From: Gemmatimonadota bacterium
GTDB taxonomy: Bacteria > JAAXHH01
Direction of reading: 5' to 3'
Assembly (NCBI GenBank): GCA_009835325.1
Contig: VXWP01000005.1
Span: 35,436-91,241 of the forward strand
DNA length: 55,806 bases
Part shown: positions 25,790 through 55,806 of the stretch, in pieces
Numbering within the stretch: position 1 is the stretch's first letter
Layout of the letters: each line of letters opens with the position of its first letter
The notes under the pieces: model-generated
What the model was told of the DNA's origin: nothing
The model's database searches: none
What the model saw: only the letters and a program-made list of their open reading frames with translations
Made by a program: the position numbers and the translations under genes

Positions 25790-25827
25790 CAGACCGGGTC
25801 GGCGGATGGATCACCGGAGAACAGGGC

Positions 25828-26688
25828 ATGCGCAAGGCGTCGGAAGTTTTCGATGAGATTCAACGCTGGGCGGAAGCGGACGATCAGATCAGGGGACTGG
25901 TCCTGTCGAGTGGCCGGGTCGATGGAAACGATACGGTCGATCTGTTGTCGGACTACGACGTGATCGTGTACGTCAGGGATCAGGAGCCGTACAAGCGGGA
26001 CGATCACTGGCTGGAAGCGTTCGGATCCGTGATGACGCGCTCGCCACCCTCGCCAACCTTGTTTGATGATGGCAGGATAGGCCGCATGGTGATCTATGAC
26101 GATGGCATCCGGATCGACTGGAGCGTTGCGGACGCCGAATCCATGCACGACCTCAACGGCGAGCCCGAACCTTACCGGGTGCTGCTGGACAAGGACCGGA
26201 TTGTAAAGAACCCCATACTGCCCTATCACAGCGCCTACCACGTTCAAAGACCTTCAAAGGACGAATATGACGAACTGGTGGCCGATTTCTGGTGGGACAT
26301 CATCTACGTGGCCAAGGCCCTGTGGCGCGATGAGCTCTACTGGGCAAAGCACATGAACAGAAAGGTCCATTCCCCCTTTCTTGAAAAAGTCATCGAATGG
26401 CATATCGGCATGAAAAACGACTGGTCGGTTACGACCAACAAACACGGCCGCTGGTTCAAGCGTTACCTGGACCCCGGGACATGGGCGGAAATCGAATCCA
26501 CGTATTCGGGTGCGGACCCGGATCAGAACTGGGATGCCCTGTTCAATGCGACCCGGCTGTTCCGGAGGCTTGCCGTCACCGTCGCCGACGGAATGGGTTT
26601 CGACTATCCTCATGAAACCGACCGGCGCGTCACGGCGTACATGGGGAAGATCAGGCGGCTGGACCGGGACGCCGAGGATTTCGTGTGA
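25828..26688 (+). CDS. Aminoglycoside 6-adenylyltransferase (AadS/ANT(6))-like nucleotidyltransferase
   Basis: A 286-residue protein resembling streptomycin adenylyltransferases. The N-terminal nucleotidyltransferase core reads IRGLVLSSGRVDGNDTVDLLSDYDVIVYV, with the catalytic Asp pair in SDYDV, and RMVIYDDGIRIDWSVAD supplies the third carboxylate. The C-terminal helical domain (FWWDIIYVAKALWRDELYWAKHMNR) is the family's substrate domain. Chromosomal homologues often have no proven antibiotic role. The ATG at 25828 is chosen because GGAGAACAGGG precedes it and it follows the FG-GAP stop; the open frame upstream overlaps that gene. ALDH7 starts 23 bp after its stop. Confidence 0.82.
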   Translation: MRKASEVFDEIQRWAEADDQIRGLVLSSGRVDGNDTVDLLSDYDVIVYVRDQEPYKRDDHWLEAFGSVMTRSPPSPTLFDDGRIGRMVIYDDGIRIDWSVADAESMHDLNGEPEPYRVLLDKDRIVKNPILPYHSAYHVQRPSKDEYDELVADFWWDIIYVAKALWRDELYWAKHMNRKVHSPFLEKVIEWHIGMKNDWSVTTNKHGRWFKRYLDPGTWAEIESTYSGADPDQNWDALFNATRLFRRLAVTVADGMGFDYPHETDRRVTAYMGKIRRLDRDAEDFV

Positions 26689-40202: not shown

Positions 40203-41981
40203 TCAACCGGTAGGATCTGCCGTCGTCTTGGCCTTGACGCGAACGGTGACGATATCCGTGTCGTGGTACTGTTGGTGGCGGACAGAAGACGCGAGGTGCC
40301 GCAGGAGCCGGAGAGAGACTTCCTGTTCGATAGACGTTTCGTCGGTATCGTCGGGTAACGTGGCGAGCCTGTCCTGTATGTTCCCGCCTTTCGGTGTGAC
40401 GACAAACTCCAGTACCGCCCAGCCTTCTTCCCTGGATACAACGAGCCGCAGATTACTCCCTTTTCGTTCTCCGGGCACTCCGGGCTTTTCGGGCTCTTTT
40501 TGCCGGATGAGCGTCAGCAGGGTCTCTTCGGCGACGGCGTCGAGGCGTCCGGCCATGGCCGCGTCCCAGCCGGACCGGGAGGCGAAGTCCCCGAGGAACG
40601 ATCGGATTTCAGCCAGGGCGGATGTGTCCAGTGCCGTCTCCATCCGGTAGCGTCGGTGTCCGGTGGCACTGAGTGCCAGGTTGAGGAGAATAGCCACCAG
40701 ACCCCCCGCGGTCATGCCGTTCCGGAACAGGCCCCCCGCGAACTGCGAGACGAAATCCGGGTAGATCAGTTCAAATTGCAGGCTGAATCCCACCAGGAAA
40801 GCGGCGCCCACGATGAAGCCTTTGTTCTTGTCGAGGCCGTCCTGGATGACGATCTTGAGACCCACGATAAAAAGCATCGCCAGCAGCACGATGAAGTATG
40901 CCGCGAAGACCGGATCCGGAATCGCCAGGACCAGGGCGAACACCTTGGGCAGGAACACGAGCACTACGAAAGCGGCGCCGGTGAAAAGGCCCACGGTCCG
41001 GGCGGCTACGCCGGTGAGTTCGATAAGCGGTACGCTGGTCGTGTAGGTCGTGCCCGGCACGGTCCCCGCGAGTCCGGAGAGGAAAGATCCCACGCCGTCG
41101 ACGGTCATGGCGCCCTGAATCGATCTGAAATCGACCGCCCTGGTCTGTCGCCATGATATGCGCTGGATGGCGACGCAACTGCTGATCGTACGGAGCGAGA
41201 CGACCACCGCCACCAGCAGAAAGCCGGGAAGCAGCACCCAGAAATCGCCTCCGAAACCCACGTCGAAACCCGGCCAGAGGAATGCGGGCAGGTTGATCCA
41301 GTCCGCCTCCGCGATTCTATCCACGTCGAACAGACCGAAACAGCCGCCGACCACGGAGCCGGCGGCCACGCCGATGATCGGCGCCCAGAGCCGCAACTTC
41401 GCTGAACCCTTGAGCGTTAAGCCGGAAATGACGGCCACGGTGGCCACGGCGCTGAGGACGGCGCCGAGCGACAATTGCCCATCCGGCGTCGACGACAACA
41501 TATCGCCCATCACGGGCATCACCGTAACGGGAATCAACATGATCACAGTGCCAGCGACCGTGGGCGTGAGGACGCGCTGGAACAGCGAAAGCCGCCACGA
41601 AAGGGCGATCGGAACCAGGGAGGACACGACGACGAGCACGGCGAGCAGGGCCGGTCCGCCGGCCGCCAATGTCTCGATGCAGATCGATATGTACGCCGCC
41701 GACGTGCCCATGACCAGGAGATGGCCCGAACCGATCCTGCCGAAGCGAAGGACCTGCAACATCGTGGTCGCGCCGCAGATCGCGACCGAGGCGAATACGG
41801 CCCACGCGACGGTGTCCTCCGTTTGTCCGGCGGCCCGCATGACGATCATCGGGATGATCATGACCGCGGCGATGTTCAACAAGGCCAGCTGCAGTCCCAG
41901 GCCGAGCGCGAGCATCGTCGGAGGCGGTTCATCCGGTTGAAACCGCAAGCCAGAACGGACGACGGATCCATCAGAACTCAT
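40203..41981 (-). CDS. NCS2 (xanthine/uracil) permease with C-terminal cytosolic ATPase-like domain
   Basis: A 592-residue protein. Residues about 15-440 carry 12-14 membrane segments with NCS2 features: GLQLALLNIAAVMIIPMIV, GTSAAYISI, and GSFLSGLAGTVPGTTYTTSVPLIELTGVAARTVG, the signature region. Residues about 450-592 are soluble (ALAEIRSFLGDFASRSGW, RLDAVAEETLLTLIR) and resemble an RsbW-like GHKL ATPase, though its N-box Asn and Gly boxes are not evident. The start at 41981 is preferred over one 26 codons upstream because GGGAGA lies before it. It is divergent from the ACP gene. The substrate is probably a nucleobase. Confidence 0.85.
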   Translation of the reverse strand: MSSDGSVVRSGLRFQPDEPPPTMLALGLGLQLALLNIAAVMIIPMIVMRAAGQTEDTVAWAVFASVAICGATTMLQVLRFGRIGSGHLLVMGTSAAYISICIETLAAGGPALLAVLVVVSSLVPIALSWRLSLFQRVLTPTVAGTVIMLIPVTVMPVMGDMLSSTPDGQLSLGAVLSAVATVAVISGLTLKGSAKLRLWAPIIGVAAGSVVGGCFGLFDVDRIAEADWINLPAFLWPGFDVGFGGDFWVLLPGFLLVAVVVSLRTISSCVAIQRISWRQTRAVDFRSIQGAMTVDGVGSFLSGLAGTVPGTTYTTSVPLIELTGVAARTVGLFTGAAFVVLVFLPKVFALVLAIPDPVFAAYFIVLLAMLFIVGLKIVIQDGLDKNKGFIVGAAFLVGFSLQFELIYPDFVSQFAGGLFRNGMTAGGLVAILLNLALSATGHRRYRMETALDTSALAEIRSFLGDFASRSGWDAAMAGRLDAVAEETLLTLIRQKEPEKPGVPGERKGSNLRLVVSREEGWAVLEFVVTPKGGNIQDRLATLPDDTDETSIEQEVSLRLLRHLASSVRHQQYHDTDIVTVRVKAKTTADPTG

Positions 41982-41998
41982 TGGGGCGATTCTCCCGG

Positions 41999-42059
41999 TT
42001 GCCGTTTGCGTATTTTCTATACGAATTCTATAAAAGTTCGTTTGATTTAGAAACGGCAA
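41999..42059. promoter_or_regulatory. Paired 9-bp inverted repeat, candidate operator in the permease/ACP divergent region
   Basis: TTGCCGTTT at 41999-42007 is repeated inverted as AAACGGCAA at 42051-42059, 52 bp centre to centre, about five helical turns. The right arm sits between the -35 and -10 boxes of the ACP promoter, and the left arm is next to the permease start. Confidence 0.45.
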
Positions 42060-42070
42060 ACAGTTATACT
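42042..42070 (+). promoter_or_regulatory. Putative sigma70 promoter of the ACP gene
   Basis: TTGATT (42042-42047), 17-bp spacer, TATACT (42065-42070), 57 bp before the ATG, within an AT-rich stretch that contrasts with the surroundings. Confidence 0.6.
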
Positions 42071-42533: not shown

Positions 42534-45500
42534 TTAGCGGATCCAGTAGCTCATGCGCTGGAACGGATAGCCGGGGAGGGCGCGTCTTCGACGGGACTCA
42601 CCCGCGAACAGTCCGCCCGGTGATACCGGCAAACCGATTTCGTAAGCCGTCTTCACCGCATGCATGAATCCGTCTCCTTCCTCTTCGTCGTTTTCATCTG
42701 CAGCATGAGCGAGGCCGCCGAACAAGGTCAGCGCCGCGGCGGCTTCGTCCGCCTGCTTTTCCGGCCATGCTTCGGATATACCCGCCGAAAACCTCGATAC
42801 CGGGCCAATTTCTATCAGCGTATCCACGGCAAGATCGGCCAGGCTTCGCGCCGAAGCGCCCGATCCCTGGCTCGATTCCTGGCCGGCGAGCGATCCCTCG
42901 CCTTCGACTGTCCGATGGATCCAGCGGTCCAGGTCCGCCATCTCTGCCGGCCCCACCCTTTCTCCCGTGGCTCCGCAGACGATCGTCAGTGACGGCGTCG
43001 ATACGGATATCCCATCCAGCCTGGTCTTCGATGCTTCCGCGGCTAAGGGTGCGGAGCGATTTCCATCCATGGTCCCGCCGATCTCCCCGCGCGCCATTGC
43101 GATGCGTAGTCCCTCGTCGAGTGTGAACGCTCCGGCAGCCTGCGCGGCGGCGATCTCCCCGGCGTTGCGGCCACAGACTGCCGAGGGCCGTACATCCAGG
43201 CTGGACCACAGGGCGGTGATCGCGCACTGAAGGGCATAGGCCGCCGGGTCCGCCCAGGCTGGATCGTCGATCGGATGCGCCGTCCCTTCCCCGTCGAACA
43301 GGGGATCGAGCAGGGAGGCCTCCGTTTCGCCGCGGTACAGCGCTTCGCAGTAATCCAGGACGCCTCGCACCACGGGTTCCGAATCGTACAGGCGCTTGCC
43401 GGTATCCCGCCATCCGTCGTCCCAACCATCATATACGAACGCCACCTTCGGCGCGGCCGCGGCCACATTGATCGAGTTCGACTCGACGGAATCAGAACGG
43501 GCCTCATTCGACGCGAGTACGTCCAGTCCTTCGCGGAGCGTTGCGACACTGCGAAACACCACGCCGTTCCGGTAACTGAAGTGGCTTCTACCCACACTTG
43601 CGGTCCACGCCATATCCGACAGGAACTCATCTACCGATTCCGCGTTCGAGCCGGCCGCAAGATTACGATCCAACCAGGACAGGTAACTTCCCGCGAGTTC
43701 CCTGAGTGCCGCCGGGTTCTTGCCCGAGAGCGGCAGGAGGCGGCTCGTCCGCGCCCCGGGACGCACACTGTCCCGTTCCGGTTCCGGAACGCCCGGAGGC
43801 AGTTTCACCGCGACGGCCTGCCGTGCGCCGGTCGCTTCGATCTCCGTTTGCGCCGATCGCGCGCCATCGGCGCGCGTCCCATAGCCTTCGACCACCACGT
43901 GGGCGTTCGCCCCGGATATGCCGAAGGCGCTGACCGCCGCGCGATGCGGCCGTTCGGGACAGGCCGGCCAGTCCACGGTTTCCGAGGTCACCCGCACGGG
44001 AAGGCGGTCCCATTCCACGTTCGGGTTCGGCTTCTCGAAATGAAGTTGTTTCGGGATGCGCCTGTGACGAATCGCCATGACTGCCTTGATCAGTCCGGCG
44101 AGGCCGGCAGCAGACTCGAGATGGCCGATATTGGTCTTCACCGACCCCACCAGGAGCGGCCGGTCCGGCGCGCGTCCCCTGCCGTAAACCGCGGCGGCCG
44201 CCTGCACCTCGATCGGGTCGCCCAGCGCCGAACCGGCGCCGTGGGCCTCCAGATAGTCCACTTCCGCGGGATCGACGCCCGCCTGCGCCAGCGCGTCCTC
44301 GATCACCCGTTCCTGCGCCGGACCATTGGGCACCGTGGGTCCCGCGGTCGCACCGTTCTGGTTGACCGCCGAACCCCGGATGACGCCCCAGATGCGGTCG
44401 CCGTCCGCCTGGGCCGCGCTCAATCGTTTCAACACGACCACGGCGCAGCCTTCGCCTCTAACGAAACCGTCTGCTTTGGCGTCGAAGGCGTAGCAACGAC
44501 CTTTATTGGACAGCATGCCCAGGTAGGCCATTTCCGACGTGATATCGGGGGACAGCACCGTATTTACCGCTCCTGCCAGAGCCATATCCACTTCTCCGAG
44601 ACGGAGGCTGGCCACAGCGTGGTGCACGGCAAACAGGGCCGACGCACAATTCAGTTCCAGAGGGACCGAGGGACCTTCCAGGCCCAACAGGAAGGAAATC
44701 CGGCTTACTGTCAGGCTTCTGGCCGTACCCAGGAAATTGACGCCGCCTCCCTGGTTCTTCATCAGATCACGATACTCGCTGGAAGATATACCCGTGTACA
44801 CCCCCGTACGCGAACCTCGGAGCCTGTCCGGATTGATTCCCGCGTCATCGATCGCGTGCCAACTCGTCTCCAGCAGGAGCCGCTGCTGGGGATCCATGCT
44901 GCGCGCTTCCAGTGGCGATACCCTGAAGAACCTCGCATCGAACTGGTCTATGTCGTCTATGAACCCTGCGCGACGCCAACCTTCGTCGCCCTGGTCCGGC
45001 CCATCCGGCGATACACTCGCCGTTCCGGTGTCGGGACGCACGTCCGTGACGGCATCCGTACCTTCTTCCAGCATGCTCCAGAAGGCATTCAGGTCCGGCG
45101 CGCCGGGAAAACGGCACGCCATGCCGATAATGGCAATGCCTTCGTTTTCGGACCGGGAAACGGCACCGCTCGCGGGTCCTGTGGGCGCTTCCGGGACAGC
45201 AGAGGCACCGCTCGCGGGCCCTGTGGGCGCTTCCGGGGGCGCGATGGCAAAGCGGCCGGATCCGGCAGGCGCTTCCGAACCCGCGGCTTCGCTTCCGCTG
45301 CCACCGGATTCAGGATCGCCGCTTTCCAATTCCGCGTCGCCGATCTCGTCCATCAGGTGGGTGGCGAGAGACGAGATATCCGGATAGTCGAAAACCAGGG
45401 TATTGGGCGCCGTGTAGCTGCCCGCAAGGGCGCGGTTCAACCGGTTCCTCAGTTCGACCGCCATCAGCGAATCCATGCCGAGGTCGAAAAAACCCACGGT

Positions 45501-48500
45501 AGGCGCAGGCGTGGACGACAGCCGAAGCACCGATTGCACTTCCCCTTGCAGGAAGGAAACCAATACGTTCTCCCGTTCCGCGGAGGGTGTATTCCGCAGA
45601 CGGGTCAAGACGTCATCCGAGGATTCCGGCGCCTCTTCCGCCTCCTCCTGGGCAGCCGTGAGCAGGTCCTCGAGCAAGGGCGGCCGGCTTTCCGCCGCTT
45701 CTTCGAATACGGACCAGTCCATCGCCATGACCACGGAATGGGTTCCATCCTGCCGGACCAGCCGGTCCAGTGCCCTCAGGCCCTGCTGCGGGGTAAACCA
45801 GCGACCGCCGAGAGCCGCGCGTTGGCTTTCGATCCGTTCTTTCTGCTCCGCTGCTTCGCCGATCTCCGACCAGGCGCCCCAGGCGATGGCCTGTCCCGGA
45901 AGCCCCAACGCCCGTCGGTGGCCGGCCAACTGGTCCAGGAATGCATTGGCCATGGCGTGGTTCGCCTGGCCCGGGTTGCCCATGACGCCGACCCGGCTCG
46001 AGAAGAGCACGAACAGATCCAGGTCCCGGTCCCGGGTCGCCTGGTGAAGGTGCCAGGCGCCCAGTATCTTGGGCCGCAACACGGTCTCGAAGTTCTCCCA
46101 GCGCTGGTTCCCCAGCGCGCCGTCCGACAGCACACCCACGCTGTGGATCACCCCGCCCAGGGGCGGCAGATCCCGGTCCATGCGCTCGAGCATCGCGTCC
46201 ACCGCGTCCAGATCCGTCACATCCGCCAGTTCCACCTGTACCGCCACACCCCGCTCCCGGAGTTCCTGTATGGCTTCTTCGGCTTCCGCGTCCGGCTGGC
46301 GGCGGCCATTCAGCACGATCGTGCCGGCGCCGCGATCCGCGAGCCAGCCGGCCACCGCGCAACCGATGCCGCCCAGTCCCCCCGTCACCAGGTAGGTGCG
46401 GTCCTTCTTCAATCTGCCGGTGACCAGCGGGGGCGGCGTAACGACGATCTTTCCGAGATGGCGGGCGGACCGCATGAAGGACAGGGCGGCGCCTGCTTCG
46501 GCCAGGGGCCAGCGGCTGTGTATGATGGGTTTAAGTTCTCCCGAAACCAGGCGCTCCATGATACCTCTGAGGACGCGGCCGACCCAGGCAGGGTCCGTCT
46601 TCTTCAGTACATCCAGCTCCAGGATGTCGTAGGCCACGTCGGGACGCAGCGCGGCCATCTCGTCCCCGGTCAGGATGTCGCGCCGGGCCATCTCCACGAA
46701 ACGGCCATCGGGCTTGAGGCAGGACAGGCTGGCGTCGATGAACCCCTCGCCCGTCAGGCTGTTCAGGACCACGTCCACCCCTTCGCCACCCGTGGCTTCG
46801 AGGATCTCCGGTCCGAACGCCGTCGTGCGGCTGTCGTAAATGTGCTCTACGCCCAGCGAGCGGAGATAGGCCTGTTTCGGAGCGCTTGCCGTGGCATGGA
46901 CCTCGGCCCCCGCGGCCTGAACCAGCTGGATGGCCGCCAGTCCCACTCCGCCGGCACCGGCGTGAATGAGCACTTTTTCTCCCGCCTCGAGTCCCGAGTA
47001 CTCGAAGGAAAGCGCGGCGGATACGAAGGCGCTGGGTACCGTGGCGAGTCCGGAGACGGAGAAGCCCTCCGGCGCGGGCGCCACGAGATCCCCATGGGTG
47101 ATCATGAGCGGTGCGAAGGCGCCGAAGCCCAGACCCACCACGTGATCTCCCACCGAGACGGACGATACTCCGTCGCCCACCTCGGTGATCACGCCGCACA
47201 TCTCCCGTCCCAGGAGACCCTCTTCGATGAAGCCGAGGGACCGGAATACATCCCAGAAATTGAGTCCGGCCGCCTCGACCGCTACACGAACTTCGCGGGG
47301 TTCGAGCGGGCGCGGCGGTAGTGGTTGTACGAAGGGTTGGTCGAAGACGCCCGCCGGGTCTGGCGCCAGCACCCATTCCTGGTCTTCCGGAAATTCCAGG
47401 CTACCTGTACTGTCTCCCATTCGAACCAGCCGTGCCACCAGGCGGCCTTCCCGACGGTAGACGATGTGGTTCTCCTCGTCCGGGTACATGAGTTCATTGA
47501 CGAGATCGGGACCCGGCGCCAGTTCCGCGGGATCCAGATCCAGCATCCGTGGTTGCAGATGCGGCGCTTCGCGGGCCACCCCCTTGCCGAATCCCCACAG
47601 GGCGGCACCCGCCAGTTCACCGCCGAGCTCCCGTTCCAGTACCTGGGACCCGCGGGTGATGAACCAGACGCCCCTGGCCGGGGTCGAATCGGTGTCGATC
47701 AGCCCCTGCACGAGTGCGAGGGCACAGGCTCCTGCACGCTGCACTTCCGCGGCCAGTTCCAGCGTGTCGGTCTGCGCACCGGGGCCGTCCAGGCCGGCCA
47801 GGTGTACGACGCCGCTGAACGGCACGTCCCGCGGCAGGCTTTCGATCACCGATCGCCACGATTCCCGTTGTCCCCATTCCGCGGTGGTCCTGACGATACC
47901 CGGGCCGTTTGTGGCAGGCAATCCGTCCGCTGCATCGCCGTCCCGCACCAGGCAGACCGTCTGGTTCCGCGCCGCCAGTGCGGACGCGAGTTCCTCCGCG
48001 CGTCCCGTCCGGTCCTCGGTGAGGATCCACGCGCCGGCAGGTTCGGATACCTTCGCCGGTCCCTGAGCCACGATCACGCCTTTGTCCAGGATCGTGGATG
48101 CGTCCGATGTATCCGGCCCGCCTGGTCCGTCTGGTGCGCCTGTTCCGTCCGGTCCGTCGGGTCCCAGCACTTCCGATTCCGCGAATCCCGCGTCGCCAAG
48201 GGCCCGCCGCCAGACGTCGGGGCCTGCGAGCGCGTGGTGGGGCCGGTAATCGTCGGCGAACCGCCACCAGCCGTCGAGTTGTCCGAAGGTCAGGTCCATC
48301 CAACCCAGTCCGCTGAGGTTCTCGAGTGCGATCAGATGGCCGGACGGTGCGAGCAGATCCCTGCAGTGACCGAGGGTCTCCGTCAGGTACCGTGTCGCGT
48401 GCAATACGTTCGACGCGATCAGCAGGTCATAACCATGGGGTTCGAATCCCTGCCCGATCGGGTCCTTTTCGATATCCAGCGGGCGATAGTCGATGGCTCC

Positions 48501-51500
48501 GCCGCGGTCGCCGAACCGGGATTCCGCTTCGGAGAAGAAACCCGCGGAAATATCGGTGTAGGTGTAGAGGAACCGTCCTTCCGGAAGCTCGGGCAACACG
48601 GACGCGGTCGCGGACCCCGTGCCGGCCCCGACTTCGATTACCCTGAGGCGCCGTCCATCCGGCAGTGTGGAAACGAGGGCCTGCACCGCCTCCGTGAGCA
48701 TCCTGTTCGCGGCCCGCGCGACGGGCGCTTTCAGATAGAGATCGCCCGCCGTCGGTTCTCCGCTGCTGAACAGGAGGGTCAGGGGGTCCTCTTTTCCGCG
48801 AAGCACCTCCGCCAGGGCTAGGCCGGACCGCAGGAACAACCCGATCTCGATCTGGCCCTGGTCATACCTGTCCTTCATCCAGTCGGCGAAGGCCTCGAGG
48901 TCGGCGGGCATGTGTTCAGGGAGCGGATCCTCCGGACCCACAACCACGCGGAATCCGTCGTCCCGCTCATCCATTACGCCGGATCTGGCAAGCATCTCGA
49001 AGAGCCGGCGAAAGAGGCGGGTGTGTTCGGGCAGGACGCCCAGCGCCTGCCGGAGATCGTCGGGATCCACCACCGCGCCTTTCTCACGCTGCCATCCCAG
49101 TTCCTCCAGCGACGCGAGTGCGCGGGACCGCGACCATCGCTCCAGGTCCGCCAGCAGGGCGTTCCGGTTCTCCGGATCCACGCCGGCGTCCGTCAGGTAG
49201 CCCGTAAACGACTGTGCGTTGCCCGCGACTTCCGACGGACTGGGAAAGAATTCCGCCGCTTCGATACCCGGAGCCAGGGGGCGCTCGCGCCATACGACCT
49301 CGTACAGCAGGTCATTCACGCCTTCGACGGCCGCCAGAAGGGCCGCCCGGGTCGCCCGTTTCACCGTGTATCCGCTCAGGCGGCCGACCAGGGCGCCGTT
49401 CGGATCGTAAATCCGCATCTCGCCGCTCAGTACTTCCGGCGTCTCGTCCGGGTTCGCCTCGGCGCCGCGCGAGGATTCGCCCAGCAGCACGTGACAGACC
49501 ACCCGGTCCGGCAGCGGCCCCGCCAGCCACATCCGCTCCCAGCCGAAGGGCAGGTAGGTCGCTCCGCCTTCGGTCTCCGCCACGTTCCGGGCAACGCCCA
49601 TGACCTGGAAGCATCCGTCGAGGACGAGCGGATGCACGTCCAGCCCGTCCCTGTCGTGGGGTTCCGTTATAGAGACCTCCGCTACCGCCTCGCCCGGCCG
49701 GGACCATGCGTTTCCGAGCGTGCGGAAGCTGGGACCGAGATCGACCCCCGTACTCGCCCGGTGGCGGTAGTAGCCCGCAACGTCCACGGGCAAGAGTCCG
49801 TCTTTCAGCGCTTCCAGGTCGACCTGCCGGTCAACCTGGCCAGCCTGGCCAGCCTGACCAGCCTGACCGGACTGGCCGCCCGTACCGTCTCCCGGATCAG
49901 GGGCGCCCGGTGCGATGCGCCCTTCTACATGGACCGTCCACTCTTCTTCATTCCCCTTGCTGTAGATCTGCATGCCTCTGGATGCATCCGGTTTCGCCGT
50001 CTCGATCACGACCTGAACCCGTCGTCCGTTGTCGGCCCCTTCCTCGTCGTCGAAGACCATCGCGTTGTGTAACTGCATGTCTTCCAAAACCATCGGACCG
50101 CTTCCCTCAAGCATTGATACGGCACAGGCCATGGAACCGTACAGGGCGCCTGGAGCCAGGACGCGGTTGAAAACGCGGTGGTCGTTCAGCCAGGATGGAT
50201 CCGCGGGGAAGATCTCCGTTTCGAAGGTGATCTCGCCGCGGGCGGACTCGTGACGGTCTCCCAGCAGGGGATGGCCGGCGCCGCTCCGACGTTGCTTCGG
50301 CGCTTCGACCCAGTGCCGCTGGCGTTGGAACGGGTACCCCGGCAACGAGATCCTGCACCGGGACTCCCCGGCGAACAGTCCTTCGAAACGGATCGGCAGG
50401 CCGGCCTCATAGGCCGCTGCTACAGCGTTTACGAGACTGCCCACTACCGGTATCGGCGAATCATCGGAGGGACGGGTGAGACTGGGGAGCACTTTGGGCG
50501 CCGGTGTCTGCGGAGTTTCCGGCCAGGACGAAACGGTCAGGGGCGCCAGGATCGCGTGCGGACCGATCTCGACGACCAGGTCCGCGCCGAGCGCGGCCAG
50601 CGTGCCGACACTTTGGGCGAAAGCCACGGGTTCCCGCGCGTGCCGCTTCCAGTAGGCCCCGTCGAACAGGTGATCGGAAGCTACTTCCCGTCCCGTCAGA
50701 TTGCTCACCACGGGAATCGACGGGGTACCGATGGCCACCCCGTCCAGTGAGGATTCCAGCGCGTCCAGGGCCGGTTCCACCAGCGCGCTGTGGAAGGCCC
50801 TGGTGGTGTTCAGCCGTCTTGCACGGATCCCTGCCGCCTCGAAGTGTCTCATGACGGCTTCGACGCCCGGGACCGTTCCGCTTACCACCTGGTGCGACCC
50901 GTTGTCCGCCGAGATATTGCACCCGATTCCGCCGGCCGCTTCGAAATCGCCGGCCGCTTCGTTCAGCACTTCCAGTTCGGCTTCGACCCGTTCCGCGGGC
51001 GCGAAAACCGCGGCCATGGCACCTTCTTCGGTACCGGACAGCAAGGTGCCCCGCGTGGCGGCGAACCGCATCCCGTCTTCCAGGCCGAATACCCCCGCGG
51101 CATGCGCCGCGGCCAGTTCCCCGACGCTGTGGCCCATGACCACGGCCGGCCGAACGCCGATGCTTGACCAGAGGGCCGTCAGCGCACATTCCAACGCGAA
51201 AAGCGCCGGTTGCTCCCAGGCCGTGTCGTTCAGCGGTCCTACCGCTTCGTTACGGCCGAACATCACATCCAGCAGTGAGGTCTCGCGGACCTCCTGGAAC
51301 ACCGCTTCACAGCGGTCCAGTACCGCACGGGCTACGGGCTCCTGTTCGTAAAGCGCCTGCCCCATGCCGACCCACTGGCTTCCCTGGCCTGTATAGACAA
51401 ATGCAATCTTCGCCGGTTTCAGGGCGTGCTCGATCGGGCCGGTTCCGGTCAGTTCGGTGAGCCGTTCCCGCAGTGAATCGATATCGTGGAAAGCAATGCC

Positions 51501-53234
51501 CGCGCGGTGATCGAAATGGCTTCTTCCCACGCCCGACGTCCACGCCATATCCGAAAGGAGCCCTTCCAGACCGGCCTCGCCGTCGCCGTCGACGGAGTGC
51601 GATTCTTCGGACCGGCCGGTCTGCTGGTCGAGCCAGGAAAGGTATCGGCCGGCCAGTTCGCGTAACGCGTCGTCCGATTTGCCCGACAGTGGTAGCAATC
51701 GGGTCTTGCGCGGTCCCAGGTCATCGGACGGCACAGGCGCGCCAGCCACCGATTCAGGCAATGAAGCGGCCACAGCGACCGGCGATCCGGCGACCGGCGA
51801 TCCGGCGACCGGCGATCCGGCGACCTCGCGGCCGCCTTCCCCTGCTTCATCCGGTGCGCGGTACTCCTCCACCACGATGTGGGCGTTGGTTCCGGAAATG
51901 CCGAAGGAGTTCACGCCCGCCATGCGCGTGCGCCCGTCCGTACGCGGCCAGTCTATCATTTCCGTGGTAACCCGTATGGGTAGGTTATCCCAATCGATAC
52001 CGGGGTTCGGGTCGTGGAAGTGAAGGTGCTTCGGGATCACTCCATGCTTTACCACCAGGGCGGCCTTGATCAGTCCGGCCACACCCGCGGCCGACTCCAG
52101 GTGGCCGAGATTGGTTTTGACGGAACCCGTCAGCAGCGGATGATCGGCGCCGCGTCCCCGGCAGTAGACTTCGGACACGGCGTCGATCTCGATCGGGTCG
52201 CCCACGGTCGTCCCGGTCCCGTGCGCCTCCAGGTACTCCACGTCCGTAGGAATTACCCCCGCCTGGTCCAGCGCGTCTTCGATCACCTGGATGAGTGCGG
52301 GGGTATGGGGGACGGTCAGGCCCGTGCTGGCTCCGCCGTGGTTTATGGCCGAACCGCGGATGACGCCCCAGATCCGGTCGCCGTCGGCCTCTGCCTCGCT
52401 CAGCCGTTTCAGGACCACCACGCCGCATCCTTCGCCCCGTACGTAGCCGTTCGCCGACGCGTCGAAGGTCTTGCACTGTCCATCCGGTGACAGCATCATG
52501 GAATCGGCGCGCAATTCGTAAATACGGGGATTCAGGAGCGCCTGCACGCCGCCCGCAAGGGCCAGGTCGGCCTTGCCGTGCTGCAGGTCCGATACCGCGT
52601 CGTGGATCGATACCAGAGACGACGCGCAGGCGGCGTCCACCGCCTTTACGGGACCCATCAGGCCCAGTACGAAAGCGACCCTGCCGCAGGTGCCGTTAAG
52701 GTTCGTGCCGCTCAGTGCGTAGAGACAGGAGGCCGCGTCGGAGGGCCGGGTGGATTCCAGGACCAGCATGCGGTACTCGTCGTTGCTGATCCCGGTGTAG
52801 ACCCCGGTACGGCTGCCTTTCAGGCTGTCCGGGTCGATTCCCGCGTCTTCCAGCGCCTGCCAGCTCGTTTCCAGCGTCATCCGCTGCTGCGGGTCCAGCA
52901 ACTGCGCTTCGACCGGTGAAATCCGGAAGAAGGACTCGTCGAACTGGTCGATGTCGTCCACGAAGGCGCCATACCTGCAGCCGTCGCTGATTACCGCGCC
53001 TTCCGGGAAGAGCGTGCCGATGCGCCCGGTACCCGATCCGGGGACGCCCTCGGTCACCGCGTTCCCACCCGCTTCAAGCAGGCGCCAGAATGAATCCAGG
53101 TCCGGTGCGCCGGGAAACTTGCAGGCCATGCCGATGATCGCGATCGACTGTTCGTGCACGGCGTTCCGCTTCGTCCTTTCCCCGGATCGACCGGCCGCTT
53201 TCTCGCTCGCCCGTGGTGGTGTTTCGATCGACAT
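42534..53234 (-). CDS. Type I polyketide synthase: KS-AT-DH-MT-psiKR-ER-KR-ACP-KS-degenerate AT
   Basis: A 3566-residue PKS. Module 1: KS (about 30-455; Cys203 in DAACASS), AT (about 575-890; Ser703 in GHSVG, His815 in AFHS, malonyl type), DH (about 985-1280; His1019, Asp1206), C-methyltransferase (about 1390-1700; VIEVGAGTG 1532-1540), structural KR-like segment, ER (about 1970-2270; HAGAGGVG), KR (about 2275-2460; TGGLGGIG, with His2426 where the catalytic Tyr is expected) and ACP (Ser2589 in GMDSL). This set would make a methyl-branched saturated chain. Then KS2 (about 2710-3130; Cys2863 in ELNCASA, both His motifs kept) and an AT-like domain (about 3230-3566) with GRNAG (3355-3359) for GHSxG. 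The protein ends at the post-AT linker YPFQRMSYWIR. AAAGGGA precedes the ATG; E2 lies 32 bp upstream. Confidence 0.96.
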   Translation of the reverse strand: MSIETPPRASEKAAGRSGERTKRNAVHEQSIAIIGMACKFPGAPDLDSFWRLLEAGGNAVTEGVPGSGTGRIGTLFPEGAVISDGCRYGAFVDDIDQFDESFFRISPVEAQLLDPQQRMTLETSWQALEDAGIDPDSLKGSRTGVYTGISNDEYRMLVLESTRPSDAASCLYALSGTNLNGTCGRVAFVLGLMGPVKAVDAACASSLVSIHDAVSDLQHGKADLALAGGVQALLNPRIYELRADSMMLSPDGQCKTFDASANGYVRGEGCGVVVLKRLSEAEADGDRIWGVIRGSAINHGGASTGLTVPHTPALIQVIEDALDQAGVIPTDVEYLEAHGTGTTVGDPIEIDAVSEVYCRGRGADHPLLTGSVKTNLGHLESAAGVAGLIKAALVVKHGVIPKHLHFHDPNPGIDWDNLPIRVTTEMIDWPRTDGRTRMAGVNSFGISGTNAHIVVEEYRAPDEAGEGGREVAGSPVAGSPVAGSPVAVAASLPESVAGAPVPSDDLGPRKTRLLPLSGKSDDALRELAGRYLSWLDQQTGRSEESHSVDGDGEAGLEGLLSDMAWTSGVGRSHFDHRAGIAFHDIDSLRERLTELTGTGPIEHALKPAKIAFVYTGQGSQWVGMGQALYEQEPVARAVLDRCEAVFQEVRETSLLDVMFGRNEAVGPLNDTAWEQPALFALECALTALWSSIGVRPAVVMGHSVGELAAAHAAGVFGLEDGMRFAATRGTLLSGTEEGAMAAVFAPAERVEAELEVLNEAAGDFEAAGGIGCNISADNGSHQVVSGTVPGVEAVMRHFEAAGIRARRLNTTRAFHSALVEPALDALESSLDGVAIGTPSIPVVSNLTGREVASDHLFDGAYWKRHAREPVAFAQSVGTLAALGADLVVEIGPHAILAPLTVSSWPETPQTPAPKVLPSLTRPSDDSPIPVVGSLVNAVAAAYEAGLPIRFEGLFAGESRCRISLPGYPFQRQRHWVEAPKQRRSGAGHPLLGDRHESARGEITFETEIFPADPSWLNDHRVFNRVLAPGALYGSMACAVSMLEGSGPMVLEDMQLHNAMVFDDEEGADNGRRVQVVIETAKPDASRGMQIYSKGNEEEWTVHVEGRIAPGAPDPGDGTGGQSGQAGQAGQAGQVDRQVDLEALKDGLLPVDVAGYYRHRASTGVDLGPSFRTLGNAWSRPGEAVAEVSITEPHDRDGLDVHPLVLDGCFQVMGVARNVAETEGGATYLPFGWERMWLAGPLPDRVVCHVLLGESSRGAEANPDETPEVLSGEMRIYDPNGALVGRLSGYTVKRATRAALLAAVEGVNDLLYEVVWRERPLAPGIEAAEFFPSPSEVAGNAQSFTGYLTDAGVDPENRNALLADLERWSRSRALASLEELGWQREKGAVVDPDDLRQALGVLPEHTRLFRRLFEMLARSGVMDERDDGFRVVVGPEDPLPEHMPADLEAFADWMKDRYDQGQIEIGLFLRSGLALAEVLRGKEDPLTLLFSSGEPTAGDLYLKAPVARAANRMLTEAVQALVSTLPDGRRLRVIEVGAGTGSATASVLPELPEGRFLYTYTDISAGFFSEAESRFGDRGGAIDYRPLDIEKDPIGQGFEPHGYDLLIASNVLHATRYLTETLGHCRDLLAPSGHLIALENLSGLGWMDLTFGQLDGWWRFADDYRPHHALAGPDVWRRALGDAGFAESEVLGPDGPDGTGAPDGPGGPDTSDASTILDKGVIVAQGPAKVSEPAGAWILTEDRTGRAEELASALAARNQTVCLVRDGDAADGLPATNGPGIVRTTAEWGQRESWRSVIESLPRDVPFSGVVHLAGLDGPGAQTDTLELAAEVQRAGACALALVQGLIDTDSTPARGVWFITRGSQVLERELGGELAGAALWGFGKGVAREAPHLQPRMLDLDPAELAPGPDLVNELMYPDEENHIVYRREGRLVARLVRMGDSTGSLEFPEDQEWVLAPDPAGVFDQPFVQPLPPRPLEPREVRVAVEAAGLNFWDVFRSLGFIEEGLLGREMCGVITEVGDGVSSVSVGDHVVGLGFGAFAPLMITHGDLVAPAPEGFSVSGLATVPSAFVSAALSFEYSGLEAGEKVLIHAGAGGVGLAAIQLVQAAGAEVHATASAPKQAYLRSLGVEHIYDSRTTAFGPEILEATGGEGVDVVLNSLTGEGFIDASLSCLKPDGRFVEMARRDILTGDEMAALRPDVAYDILELDVLKKTDPAWVGRVLRGIMERLVSGELKPIIHSRWPLAEAGAALSFMRSARHLGKIVVTPPPLVTGRLKKDRTYLVTGGLGGIGCAVAGWLADRGAGTIVLNGRRQPDAEAEEAIQELRERGVAVQVELADVTDLDAVDAMLERMDRDLPPLGGVIHSVGVLSDGALGNQRWENFETVLRPKILGAWHLHQATRDRDLDLFVLFSSRVGVMGNPGQANHAMANAFLDQLAGHRRALGLPGQAIAWGAWSEIGEAAEQKERIESQRAALGGRWFTPQQGLRALDRLVRQDGTHSVVMAMDWSVFEEAAESRPPLLEDLLTAAQEEAEEAPESSDDVLTRLRNTPSAERENVLVSFLQGEVQSVLRLSSTPAPTVGFFDLGMDSLMAVELRNRLNRALAGSYTAPNTLVFDYPDISSLATHLMDEIGDAELESGDPESGGSGSEAAGSEAPAGSGRFAIAPPEAPTGPASGASAVPEAPTGPASGAVSRSENEGIAIIGMACRFPGAPDLNAFWSMLEEGTDAVTDVRPDTGTASVSPDGPDQGDEGWRRAGFIDDIDQFDARFFRVSPLEARSMDPQQRLLLETSWHAIDDAGINPDRLRGSRTGVYTGISSSEYRDLMKNQGGGVNFLGTARSLTVSRISFLLGLEGPSVPLELNCASALFAVHHAVASLRLGEVDMALAGAVNTVLSPDITSEMAYLGMLSNKGRCYAFDAKADGFVRGEGCAVVVLKRLSAAQADGDRIWGVIRGSAVNQNGATAGPTVPNGPAQERVIEDALAQAGVDPAEVDYLEAHGAGSALGDPIEVQAAAAVYGRGRAPDRPLLVGSVKTNIGHLESAAGLAGLIKAVMAIRHRRIPKQLHFEKPNPNVEWDRLPVRVTSETVDWPACPERPHRAAVSAFGISGANAHVVVEGYGTRADGARSAQTEIEATGARQAVAVKLPPGVPEPERDSVRPGARTSRLLPLSGKNPAALRELAGSYLSWLDRNLAAGSNAESVDEFLSDMAWTASVGRSHFSYRNGVVFRSVATLREGLDVLASNEARSDSVESNSINVAAAAPKVAFVYDGWDDGWRDTGKRLYDSEPVVRGVLDYCEALYRGETEASLLDPLFDGEGTAHPIDDPAWADPAAYALQCAITALWSSLDVRPSAVCGRNAGEIAAAQAAGAFTLDEGLRIAMARGEIGGTMDGNRSAPLAAEASKTRLDGISVSTPSLTIVCGATGERVGPAEMADLDRWIHRTVEGEGSLAGQESSQGSGASARSLADLAVDTLIEIGPVSRFSAGISEAWPEKQADEAAAALTLFGGLAHAADENDEEEGDGFMHAVKTAYEIGLPVSPGGLFAGESRRRRALPGYPFQRMSYWIR
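45172..45245 (-). repeat. Tandem repeat in the linker after the PKS ACP
   Basis: Two copies of a 48-bp unit encoding PEAPTGPASGA-type Pro/Ala-rich linker sequence, between the ACP and KS2. Confidence 0.75.
48111..48164 (-). repeat. 9-bp tandem repeats in the PKS after the methyltransferase
   Basis: Six 9-bp units, on the coding strand GGACCAGGC-like, encoding GPD/GTG/APD triplets at the end of the MT domain. Confidence 0.8.
49833..49877 (-). repeat. 9-bp tandem repeats in the PKS dehydratase domain
   Basis: Five 9-bp units, on the coding strand GGTCAGGCT and GGCCAGGCT, encoding Gly-Gln-Ala units in a loop between the two halves of the DH fold. Confidence 0.85.
51779..51823 (-). repeat. 15-bp tandem repeats in the PKS KS-AT linker
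   Basis: Three near-perfect 15-bp copies encoding GSPVA, in the linker between KS1 and AT1. Confidence 0.85.
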
Positions 53235-53266: not shown

Positions 53267-54526
53267 TCAACTGGGTCTGTTTTGGAGACCGTCCACCCTG
53301 CCGAATACCGACTCCGGTGCTTCCGCCAATTGCTTGATTCGCTGCAGGAACCGGGCGGCCGGCGCGCCGTCCACGATCCGGTGGTCGAAGGTCAGGCTGA
53401 GCGCCATCATGCGGCGCACGCCGGTCTCCCCGCTTGATTCGTCGACAACGACTACCCGCTGCACCGCCCGCCCGAGCCCGAGTATCGCACACTGGGGATA
53501 ATGTATGATCGGGGTGAAGGCGTCCACGTCAAACATGCCCAGGTTGGTCAGGGTGAAGGTTCCGCCCTCGATCTGGTCGAGCGTCAGGCTGCCGTCCTGC
53601 GCGGCCTGGATCAGGCTTTTCGTTGTTGCCGAGACATCCTGGAGCGTTTTGCCCGGTACGTCCTTGATTACGGGCGCGATCACCCCGTCGGCTGTATCCA
53701 CCGCGATACCAATGTGGATGCCGTCGTTCAGCACCACGCCGTCGCGCCAGGATGCGTTCATGACGGGATGCTCGGCCAGGGCGACGGCGGTAATCCCGAC
53801 CATCAGATCGTACCAGGACGGGCGGTAAGCCTCTTCGTACAACGAGGAAAGCGCGGTAACGTCTGCCTCGGTGTTCAGGGTGACCGGCGCCGTGGTCCGA
53901 TGTGCCTCGACCATCCGGCGGGCGATGACCTGGCGCATGTCGCCCTGGACGGCGCCGGCCCTTCCGTCCGTCCCGTCCACCGCGGGTACGTGCCGCCGGC
54001 TGCCTTCGTGCCTGCGGGCGGCTTCGAGCACATCCCTTTCCACGATCCGGCCCGATCTTCCGGTTCCTTTCAATGAACGCCAGTCGATGCCCGCGGACTT
54101 TGCCGCGCGGCGGGCCCGGGGACTGATGGCGGGGGCGTCCTGCGCTCGAGGGGCGCCCACGGCGGTTCCGGCGGCCGGTAGGGTTGGTGCGGCCGCAACG
54201 CTTCCGCCCGTTCCGGCCTTGACGACTTCGCTCTCCGTATCGTCCGGTCTCCCCGCATTCGGATCAAAGGTCTCGAGTTCTGCTTCGGCTACGACGTAAC
54301 CCAGGAGCGTTCCCACGGGCACGTTCCGCCCCGGAGGCGGCGAAGCATCGGGGATCTTCAGGATGCCGGCCTCGAAAGACTCCACTTCCGCCGCGGCCTT
54401 GTCGCCCTCGATGGTGCATACCATTTCGCCCTTGATCACCGGATCGCCGTCCTTTTTCAGCCATTCGACCAGCGTGCCTTCTTCCATGTTCCAGCCCAGC
54501 CGCGGCATGACGATTTCGTAGGGCAT
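53267..54526 (-). CDS. 2-oxoacid dehydrogenase E2 (dihydrolipoamide acyltransferase)
   Basis: The 419-residue E2 core transfers the acyl group from lipoate to CoA. It has one lipoyl domain (1-80, Lys43 in EGDKAAAEV), an Ala/Pro linker, an E3/E1-binding domain (SPRARRAAKSAGIDWRSLKGTGRSGRI, about 130-170) and the catalytic domain ending with LTFDHRIVDG, His382. FTLTNLGMFDVDAFTPIIHYPQ is typical of the acyltransferase core. It starts 9 bp after the E1beta stop with AGGAA before the ATG. Pyruvate is the likeliest substrate; acetoin or branched-chain oxoacids are possible. No E3 gene is in view. Confidence 0.92.
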   Translation of the reverse strand: MPYEIVMPRLGWNMEEGTLVEWLKKDGDPVIKGEMVCTIEGDKAAAEVESFEAGILKIPDASPPPGRNVPVGTLLGYVVAEAELETFDPNAGRPDDTESEVVKAGTGGSVAAAPTLPAAGTAVGAPRAQDAPAISPRARRAAKSAGIDWRSLKGTGRSGRIVERDVLEAARRHEGSRRHVPAVDGTDGRAGAVQGDMRQVIARRMVEAHRTTAPVTLNTEADVTALSSLYEEAYRPSWYDLMVGITAVALAEHPVMNASWRDGVVLNDGIHIGIAVDTADGVIAPVIKDVPGKTLQDVSATTKSLIQAAQDGSLTLDQIEGGTFTLTNLGMFDVDAFTPIIHYPQCAILGLGRAVQRVVVVDESSGETGVRRMMALSLTFDHRIVDGAPAARFLQRIKQLAEAPESVFGRVDGLQNRPS

Positions 54527-54535
54527 GCGCCGTTC

Positions 54536-55513
54536 CTATTCCACGAGCAGTTCGCGGACGGCCTGTTCGATCGATGCCCTGTCCGGGACGACGGCCTGCT
54601 CGAGGGAAGGGCTGTAGGGCGTGGGCACGTGGGCGCCGTTCAGCCGCTTGATCGGCGCGTCGAGTTCGTCGAAGCCGTGTTCGGTCACGCGGGCCGATAT
54701 TTCGGCGCCGATCCCGCACGGCATGAAGGTCTCGTCCACAATGAGCAGCCTGCCCGTTTTCCGCACGGACGCTAGGATGGTTTCCACGTCGAGGGGCGCC
54801 ACGGTGCGCGGATCGACGATCTCCAGGGAAATCCCCTCGCCGGACAGTTCCTCCGCGACCTGAAGGGCATGATGGACCATGACGGTAAGCGCCACGACCG
54901 TGGCATCGGTACCCTCGCGAACGACCGCGGCCTGTCCGAAGGGCACCCGGTGCTCACCGTCCGGCACGGGCCCCTTAAGGTTCAGCAGATGCCGGTGCTC
55001 CATGAAGAAAACAGGGTCCTCGCCGCGCAGCGCCGTGGCGAACAGGCCCTTCGCGTCCGCGGGATTGGAGGGCAGCGCCACGCGGAACCCCGGGATGTGG
55101 ACGAAGAAGGGATAGTAGCTGCCGGAATGGTGGGTCGCCGCGGAGTGGCCAATGCCGATGCAGCCCCGAAGCACCATAGGCATCTTCAGCCGGCCGTTGC
55201 TCATGTACTGCATCTTGGAAGTCTGGTTGATCAGCTCGCCCAGGCCGTCGAGGATGAAATCTGTAAACATGAAATCCACGACGGGCCGGGCGCCGGTCAT
55301 GGCCGCGCCCGTGCACATCCCGATGAACCCCCGTTCGCAGATGGGCGTGTCGCAGAGCCTTAAGGGGCCGTGCTTCTCGTAGAGCCCGGCCGTGGTCTCG
55401 AAATTGCCGCCGCGTTCGCCCGCGCCTTCCCCGACCACGAATATGGCGGGGTCCGCGTCCATGGCGTCGGACAGGGCTTCCCGCGCGGCTTCCGTGAAGG
55501 TCTTCTCGGTCAT
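54536..55513 (-). CDS. 2-oxoacid dehydrogenase E1 component, beta subunit
   Basis: A 325-residue E1beta of the pyruvate/acetoin dehydrogenase type. FTEAAREALSDAMDADPAIFVVGEG starts the domain; DTPICERGFIGMCTGAAMTGARPVVDFMF carries the conserved Glu region near thiamine diphosphate; GIGHSAATHHSGSYYPFFVHIPGFRVALPSNPADAKGL and the C-terminal transketolase domain (IVDPRTVAPLD, LLIVDETFMPCGIGAEI) follow. The start at 55513 is chosen because its ATG overlaps the E1alpha stop as ATGA, a sign of coupled translation; the longer frame upstream overlaps E1alpha. Confidence 0.93.
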   Translation of the reverse strand: MTEKTFTEAAREALSDAMDADPAIFVVGEGAGERGGNFETTAGLYEKHGPLRLCDTPICERGFIGMCTGAAMTGARPVVDFMFTDFILDGLGELINQTSKMQYMSNGRLKMPMVLRGCIGIGHSAATHHSGSYYPFFVHIPGFRVALPSNPADAKGLFATALRGEDPVFFMEHRHLLNLKGPVPDGEHRVPFGQAAVVREGTDATVVALTVMVHHALQVAEELSGEGISLEIVDPRTVAPLDVETILASVRKTGRLLIVDETFMPCGIGAEISARVTEHGFDELDAPIKRLNGAHVPTPYSPSLEQAVVPDRASIEQAVRELLVE

Positions 55514-55806
55514 ACCGTCTCCCGGTACACGTGGCGGTCCGCCGTGTCGCCGTCGGGCCATGGACTGGCGGCCGCTTCCCTTTCCGCTTCTTCTACTTCC
55601 GTCCGGACGTCGGCTTCGATCCGGTCCAGATTGGACGCCGTCATCGTTCCCTCGGACAGGATACGGCGCCGGAACCTCGAAATGGGGTCCTTCTCCCGCC
55701 ACTTGGCGACTTCCTCCTCGGTGCGGTACACGCCGGTAAGGCCCATCCCTTCGGCATGGGGTCGGGTGCGGTACGTCTTCGCTTCGATGAGGGTCGGTCC
55801 CTCACC
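55510..55806 (-). CDS. 2-oxoacid dehydrogenase E1 component, alpha subunit (C-terminal part)
   Basis: The last 98 residues of E1alpha; the rest is beyond the window edge. The visible part starts GEGPTLIEAKTYRTRPHAEG, the usual sequence after the thiamine-diphosphate domain, and continues with TEEEVAKWREKDPISRFRRRIL. In many E1alpha proteins the segment after RxxPH contains a phosphorylation-type loop. It is the first visible gene of the operon E1alpha-E1beta-E2-PKS. Confidence 0.9.
   Translation of the reverse strand, partial: GEGPTLIEAKTYRTRPHAEGMGLTGVYRTEEEVAKWREKDPISRFRRRILSEGTMTASNLDRIEADVRTEVEEAEREAAASPWPDGDTADRHVYRETV

Follow-up and report, generated by a model that had tools for sequence, protein, structure and literature searches.

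Why does a type I polyketide synthase (PKS) end in an acyltransferase (AT) domain that has lost its catalytic residues, and why is such a domain kept? The question is raised by a gene in a stretch of 55,806 nucleotides from a Gemmatimonadota bacterium (contig VXWP01000005.1), here called the window. An initial annotation, made from the letters alone, had suggested that the domain, termed AT* below, might be a structural or docking platform allowing the preceding KS2 to work with a partner in trans.

Organization of the locus

The PKS consists of a complete front module followed by a second KS and AT*, and AT* lies within the last 338 residues of the 3566-residue frame (window 42534–43550, minus strand; Table 1). 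The KS1 motifs CASS, HGTGT and NLGH are all found in the window, and the AT1 motifs GQGS, GHSVG and AFHS start at residues 616, 701 and 813, respectively. In the KR domain (residues 2280–2457) the motif reads GQANHAMAN; the His in it occupies the position of the Tyr that is a catalytic residue in many KRs. In the window's genus the PKS is immediately preceded by genes for a lipoyl-bearing E2 acyltransferase and an E1-beta subunit (53267–55702, minus strand), a possible source of acyl starters; no such E2 was found in the retrieved stretches of the two other genera described below. Elsewhere, the window contains an open reading frame with a match to streptomycin adenylyltransferase (25378–26688, plus strand, Pfam 3.7e-76), which overlaps the end of an FG-GAP repeat frame, and encodes a leucine-rich-repeat protein of 1567 residues in a stretch of lower GC content (1–4704, plus strand), which is cut by the window start.

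Table 1. Genes and PKS domains at the locus, with positions in the window
Feature	Position	Strand	Basis and remarks
Alpha/beta hydrolase, 313 aa	39225..40166	plus	Pfam Abhydrolase_6 9.7e-11; nucleophile-like HSVS
NCS2/xanthine-type permease	40203..42059	minus	Pfam Xan_ur_permease 1e-35; divergent from ACP2
ACP2, discrete acyl carrier protein, 80 aa	42128..42370	plus	Pfam PP-binding 1.3e-8; Ser40 in GVSSVD
Type I PKS, 3566 aa, KS1-AT1-DH-MT-ER-KR-ACP1-KS2-AT*	42534..53234	minus	Open frame and Pfam domains
Post-AT stretch, residues 3498–3566	42537..42743	minus	Ends GLFAGESRRRRALPGYPFQRMSYWIR
AT*, catalytically dead AT, residues 3261–3497	42744..43454	minus	GRNAG 3355–3359; small subdomain lost beyond about residue 3394
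KS2, residues 2696–3085	43980..45149	minus	Cys-His-His kept in the window
ACP1, residues 2562–2627	45354..45551	minus	Pfam PP-binding
AT1, residues 609–925	50460..51410	minus	Pfam Acyl_transf_1; catalytic motifs intact
KS1, residues 26–460	51855..53159	minus	Pfam ketoacyl-synt
Lipoyl-bearing E2 acyltransferase	53267..54526	minus	32 nt upstream of the PKS
E1-beta subunit, 2-oxoacid dehydrogenase	54536..55702	minus	

An acyltransferase fold without its catalytic residues

The catalytic pair of ATs is formed by the Ser in GHSxG and the His in AFHS. AT1 and AT* share 159 of 376 aligned residues (42%), and their alignment is interrupted by a single long gap of about 80 residues; together with Pfam, it bears out the claim of the initial annotation that the whole dyad has gone from the C-terminal domain. 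GHSVG of AT1 has become GRNAG, with Asn at position 3357 (codon AAC, window 43164–43166), and the opening YTGQGSQW has become YDGWDDGW, so that YDGWD stands in place of GQGS at residue 3268. The gap removes the middle stretch of AT1 that ends in AFHS, and near the end of the domain IEIGPH is replaced by IEIGPV, all as the annotation had described. Its likeness of AT* to AT1 also stands, but not the identity of two stretches given for both domains, as ITALWSS and GGLFAGESR read LTALWSS and EGLFAGESR in AT1. The missing stretch is the small ferredoxin-like AT subdomain. Taken alone, AT* matches Pfam Acyl_transf_1 (PF00698) with an E-value of 6.8e-16 over profile positions 2–134 of 319, compared with 1.3e-59 over positions 2–300 for AT1. 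Judged from these motifs, AT* is unable to load any substrate by the known mechanism; its frame is open to the end of the PKS without a stop codon, as first noted.

The structure prediction that the annotation had called for retains the AT fold (linker and AT*, pLDDT 80, pTM 0.84), an outcome that is well expected, as the underlying 56-row alignment included ATs with intact motifs. Foldseek ranks the CurL KS-AT didomain as the best match to this model (E 4.8e-17), and the model superposes onto it with a Z-score of 31.9 and an rmsd of 3.0 over 346 aligned residues (VIA-align). The model itself is proof of neither activity nor docking, and a KS2-AT* model from an 11-row alignment (pLDDT 29) was left unused. 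By the features of PF00698, AT* has the sequence and predicted fold of an AT and lacks the catalytic Ser, the catalytic His and the small subdomain.

Conservation and selection

AT* was found at 26 loci in three genera. It is present in 11 of the 12 genomes of the window's genus and, at full length, in two further genera detected in a search of 384 genomes; both are placed outside the window's phylum by the label 'same domain' and their absence from the 16-genome phylum set. The second genus carries AT* in 6 of 13 genomes and the third in 7 of the 18 genomes of its class, these seven being all sampled members of the genus, with two copies each in G396 and G398. Searches of 386 relatives of each of these two genera gave no fourth genus at an E-value of 1e-50; at most six candidates per genome were scored in the wider searches, and PKS-rich genomes may hold more AT*. 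Two loci from metagenome-assembled Gemmatimonadetes genomes (SB0665_bin_8 and IRC1_bin_16; L035 and L036) were not counted a second time. No match of at least 60% identity was found in 74 plasmid records (25–42% among the 20 matches listed).

Homologues with an intact GHSxG, which the initial annotation had named as a sign of decay, were looked for, and the Ser is absent from AT* at all 26 loci. GRNAG itself occurs in 4 of 11 rows of the window's genus. The motifs in its place are GR[NGD][AGV]G in the whole of that genus (n=11), and GHG[TA]G (n=6) and GAG[SA]G (n=9) in the wider family. In six of the nine GAG[SA]G rows a Ser follows one position after the lost one, possibly as a shifted nucleophile. 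The small subdomain is missing from every AT* (26/26), and AT* is free of stop codons throughout, G010 being read to its contig end. AT1 keeps GHS[VL]G and A[FY]HS in 22/22 loci at which it is readable, with GQGS varying to GQAS in three and to GQGG in another three, and KS2 keeps the catalytic Cys and first His at 26/26 loci and the second His at 22/26, with Tyr in the remaining four. Within the post-AT stretch, FAGE.RRR..LP.YPFQR...W is invariant in all 25 rows of alignment A5, which omits G010, cut by a contig end; alignment A4 is without L010, a duplicate of G010. In a quick tree without bootstrap, which carries a long-branch warning among its eight outside ATs, AT* forms a single clade (SH-aLRT 96) joined to AT1, and the AT* clade of the window's genus sits on a long branch (0.89). 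Since AT* is one clade next to AT1, the loss looks old and retained, as expected if a single KS-AT duplication was followed by a single loss of AT catalysis, a history that would fit the tree.

AT* is under purifying selection, which in the window's genus is no tighter than that on the inter-domain linkers. A dN/dS near 1 had been named as the other mark of decay, and all AT* medians lie below 1. With pairs of saturated or near-zero dS excluded, the AT* median in the window's genus is 0.44 (NG86, 11 genomes, 55 pairs, 0.32–0.59), beside 0.21 for AT1 (45 pairs), 0.13 for KS2 (55 pairs) and 0.40 (50 pairs) and 0.42 (55 pairs) for the linkers. The corresponding medians in the two other genera are 0.22 (13 pairs) and 0.26 (36 pairs) for AT*, 0.18 (7 pairs) and 0.27 (15 pairs) for AT1, and 0.27 and 0.22 for KS2. 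In codon bootstraps of 12 pairs from the window's genus, the upper 95% bound for AT* exceeds 1 once (1.05) and stays below it for the other 11.

A free acyl carrier protein beside AT*

The partner in trans suggested by the initial annotation now has a concrete candidate, namely the discrete acyl carrier protein ACP2, encoded beside AT* at 26/26 loci; its pairing with KS2-AT* is what we infer. The ACP2 gene, which was absent from that annotation, is convergent with the PKS in the window; the two lie tail to tail, with 163 nt between the end of ACP2 and the stop codon of the PKS. Its product matches solved free ACPs (best E 6.4e-5), and the phosphopantetheine Ser (GV[SN]S) is kept at all 26 loci. 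The gap between the two genes, stop codons included, is 63–187 nt at 25 loci; at the remaining locus, in G010, the PKS is split over two contigs, and the AT* tail and ACP2 are both on C4, 186 nt apart. The arrangement expected of a split module, an ACP encoded nearby on a separate chain, is hence seen at every locus. ACP2 is on the same strand as the PKS at 15 loci (the two other genera) and on the opposite strand at 11 (the window's genus), so that in the window the two genes are transcribed separately. Upstream of the ACP2 start there is a sigma-70-like site (window 42042–42070, plus strand); two such sites occur on both strands of the stretch, where 0.1 would be expected, and this is not functional evidence.

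A search model built from the window's genus only detects ACP2 in exactly those 11 of its 12 genomes that carry AT*, and in none of 27 other genomes searched. The sister genome G007 keeps only an AT1/DH fragment of the PKS after E2, its short match to the query being the tail of AT1 and not AT*; it has no ACP2, and no permease match was found at that locus. PKS fragments of the kind left by large deletions are seen in G007 (L048 9667–10452, near a piece of the hydrolase gene) and G392 (L104 7208–12445, near a piece of the permease gene). Two loci have a second, different free ACP beside the hydrolase, further downstream (G398b, L097 1980–2483; G400, L098 1151–1486).

The surroundings of ACP2 are also shared. 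Within the retrieved stretches, the hydrolase and the permease are each matched, in whole or in part, at 21/26 loci, and 20 of the hydrolases could be aligned. In the two other genera, a phosphopantetheinyl transferase adjoins the ACP at 13 of 15 loci, two of these being short matches, and the two loci without a match are both cut by contig ends; two of these proteins, scanned against Pfam ACPS, gave E-values of 7.9e-18 and 3.8e-17. The best phosphopantetheinyl transferase match in the window's genome is 32% identical and on another contig. No discrete AT gene was found among the scanned neighbours, which cover part of the neighbourhood; a frame of 375 residues on another contig gives a weak AT match.

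Two histories within one locus

Evolutionary distances divide the locus into two sets. At the 15 of 26 loci with all parts readable, the distances of KS1, AT1, DH, MT, ER and KR agree among themselves (0.84–0.94), as do those of KS2, AT*, ACP2, the hydrolase and the permease (0.86–0.99), whereas agreement between the two sets is poor (0.41–0.65) and ACP1 is intermediate. Recombination at a point close to ACP1 would account for this division. For ACP2, the correlation at the 19 of 26 loci readable for this comparison is 0.94 with KS2, 0.91 with AT*, 0.73 with ACP1 and 0.51–0.57 with the domains from KS1 to KR; within the window's genus alone (10 loci) the contrast is weak, with 0.76 for KS2 and AT* and 0.58–0.66 for the other domains. 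Because the hydrolase and the permease share the history of KS2, AT* and ACP2 (0.86–0.96, 15 loci), these correlations mark a block and not a specific pair of KS2 and ACP2. Between G000 and G004, dS is about 1.5 in AT1 and about 0.5–0.6 in KS2 and AT*, a difference that suggests module exchange.

A proposed split terminal module and its alternatives

We propose, with a probability of about 0.68, that the terminal module of the PKS is split: KS2 would act together with the free ACP2 in trans, and AT* would serve as a scaffold without catalysis. The proposal starts from the lost dyad, the AT fold kept in the model, the constraint on AT*, its constant neighbour ACP2 and their shared history; the KS2-ACP2 pairing, the docking and the chemistry are steps that we infer from these. 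The front module from KS1 to ACP1, with its intact AT1 and methyltransferase domain, would build a reduced chain, and the product, as far as the domains indicate, is probably reduced and methyl-branched. The Cys of KS2 would accept this chain, which would be finished on ACP2 in trans. The alpha/beta core of AT*, together with the KS-AT and post-AT linkers (LPGYPFQR), would hold the side of KS2 at which ACP2 docks, and on this proposal AT* is kept because it does so. The last step could be one condensation, AT1 or FabD having loaded ACP2 with malonyl, or the chain could simply be transferred from ACP1 to ACP2; the neighbouring hydrolase may then release it. The Tyr in place of the second His speaks against condensation in the four KS2 domains that carry it. 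Also to be weighed against the proposal are the linker-like constraint on AT* in the window's genus, with its one bootstrap bound above 1, the weak correlation contrast in that genus, the wider block that shares the history of KS2, AT* and ACP2, the opposite strand of ACP2 in the window, the second free ACP at two loci, and the Ser one position on in six GAG[SA]G rows.

Such a transfer leads to a more specific form of the split module, which we entertain only tentatively, in which KS2-AT* is an off-loading transacylase that moves the chain from ACP1 to ACP2 and needs no condensation, extender or AT activity. This would explain an AT without Ser at all 26 loci and agrees with the replacement of the second KS2 His in four of them and with the alpha/beta hydrolase belonging to the same block. 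Against it, Cys, His and His are all kept in 22/26 KS2 domains, as in a condensing KS, and the median dN/dS of KS2 has a low value of 0.13 in the window's genus, beside 0.27 and 0.22 in the two others.

A relaxed remnant is unlikely on balance. AT* would then have lost its function once ACP2 was separate, and would persist only for linkers that KS2 needs to fold, with no docking role. The resemblance of its dN/dS to that of the linkers in the window's genus (0.44 beside 0.40 and 0.42) is what this reading predicts, and the long branch of its clade there (0.89) points the same way. Yet the two other genera show similar constraint on AT* (0.22 and 0.26) and on AT1 (0.18 and 0.27), and the invariant positions at the 25 aligned loci extend beyond the linkers into the AT* core. 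Plain decay of the gene's 3' end into a pseudogene, which the lost motifs and the partial PKS genes of G007 and G392 might recall, is rejected as very improbable, since AT* has no stops or frameshifts and a dN/dS below 1, and the Ser is lost alike across three genera.

The split module could be taken one step further, to a doubtful but more general picture. AT* would be a pseudo-enzyme domain turned into a dedicated dock for a free ACP, the last KS would gate the passage of the chain from an iterative type I PKS to a carrier of type II, and the block of KS2, AT*, ACP2, hydrolase and permease would have passed between lineages, coupled to exchangeable elongation modules. In any case, a dead AT kept with a free ACP in three distantly related genera suggests a scaffold and not a broken leftover, and it points towards a common lipid or polyketide product of distantly related bacteria. 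KS2-AT*/ACP2 is a naturally recurring example of a PKS module whose AT is retained without the dyad and whose ACP is a free protein, and it makes the contribution of the AT to KS-ACP pairing, apart from catalysis, testable.

Comparison with known systems

KS2-AT* shares the KS, the KS-AT linker, the AT core fold and the post-AT LPGYPFQR with cis-AT KS-AT didomains such as those of CurL, the DEBS modules and MAS-like enzymes. Unlike in these, the catalytic Ser and His and the small subdomain are gone from AT*, and no ACP follows it in the chain. In trans-AT PKSs with an AT docking domain, a KS is followed by a non-catalytic AT remnant and the partner is supplied in trans, features which KS2-AT* shares. 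A trans-AT PKS is nevertheless rejected, since AT1 is intact in cis at every readable locus. Two further differences are that the partner next door is an ACP and not an AT, and that AT* keeps most of the AT core. Split PKS modules have KS-AT on one chain and the ACP on another, and KS2-AT* and ACP2 are likewise separate chains; the differences are that AT* is dead and that ACP2 is a free, type II-like protein.

The relatives of the window's genome presumably come from sponges. Sponge PKS/FAS clusters of the sup and swf types provide the nearest published context found (PMC3908369, PMC4245539, PMC9426513, PMC9864124, PMC4210886, PMC10469786), and both types are termed mono-modular (PMC3908369, PMC4245539). 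As described there, SwfA has the order KS-AT-DH-ER-KR-ACP and is accompanied by reductase and sulphotransferase genes, and the Sup enzymes are proposed to make mid-chain-branched fatty acids (both PMC3908369, PMC4245539, PMC9426513); SUP-like clusters are stated to occur in several phyla, independent of taxonomy (PMC9426513). Comparably, the window's PKS is spread over unrelated genera, and it has a methyltransferase domain. Unlike the mono-modular sup and swf, it has a second KS and AT*, and the descriptions at hand mention neither a dead AT nor a second KS. Nor was anything on a dead AT conserved alongside a free ACP found among the matches listed in a literature search of open-licence papers. 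The PKS itself may be identical with that of sup, the comparison being one of descriptions; new here is the ACP2 gene constantly beside AT*, and the two together would offer a point at which carrier systems of type I and type II naturally join.
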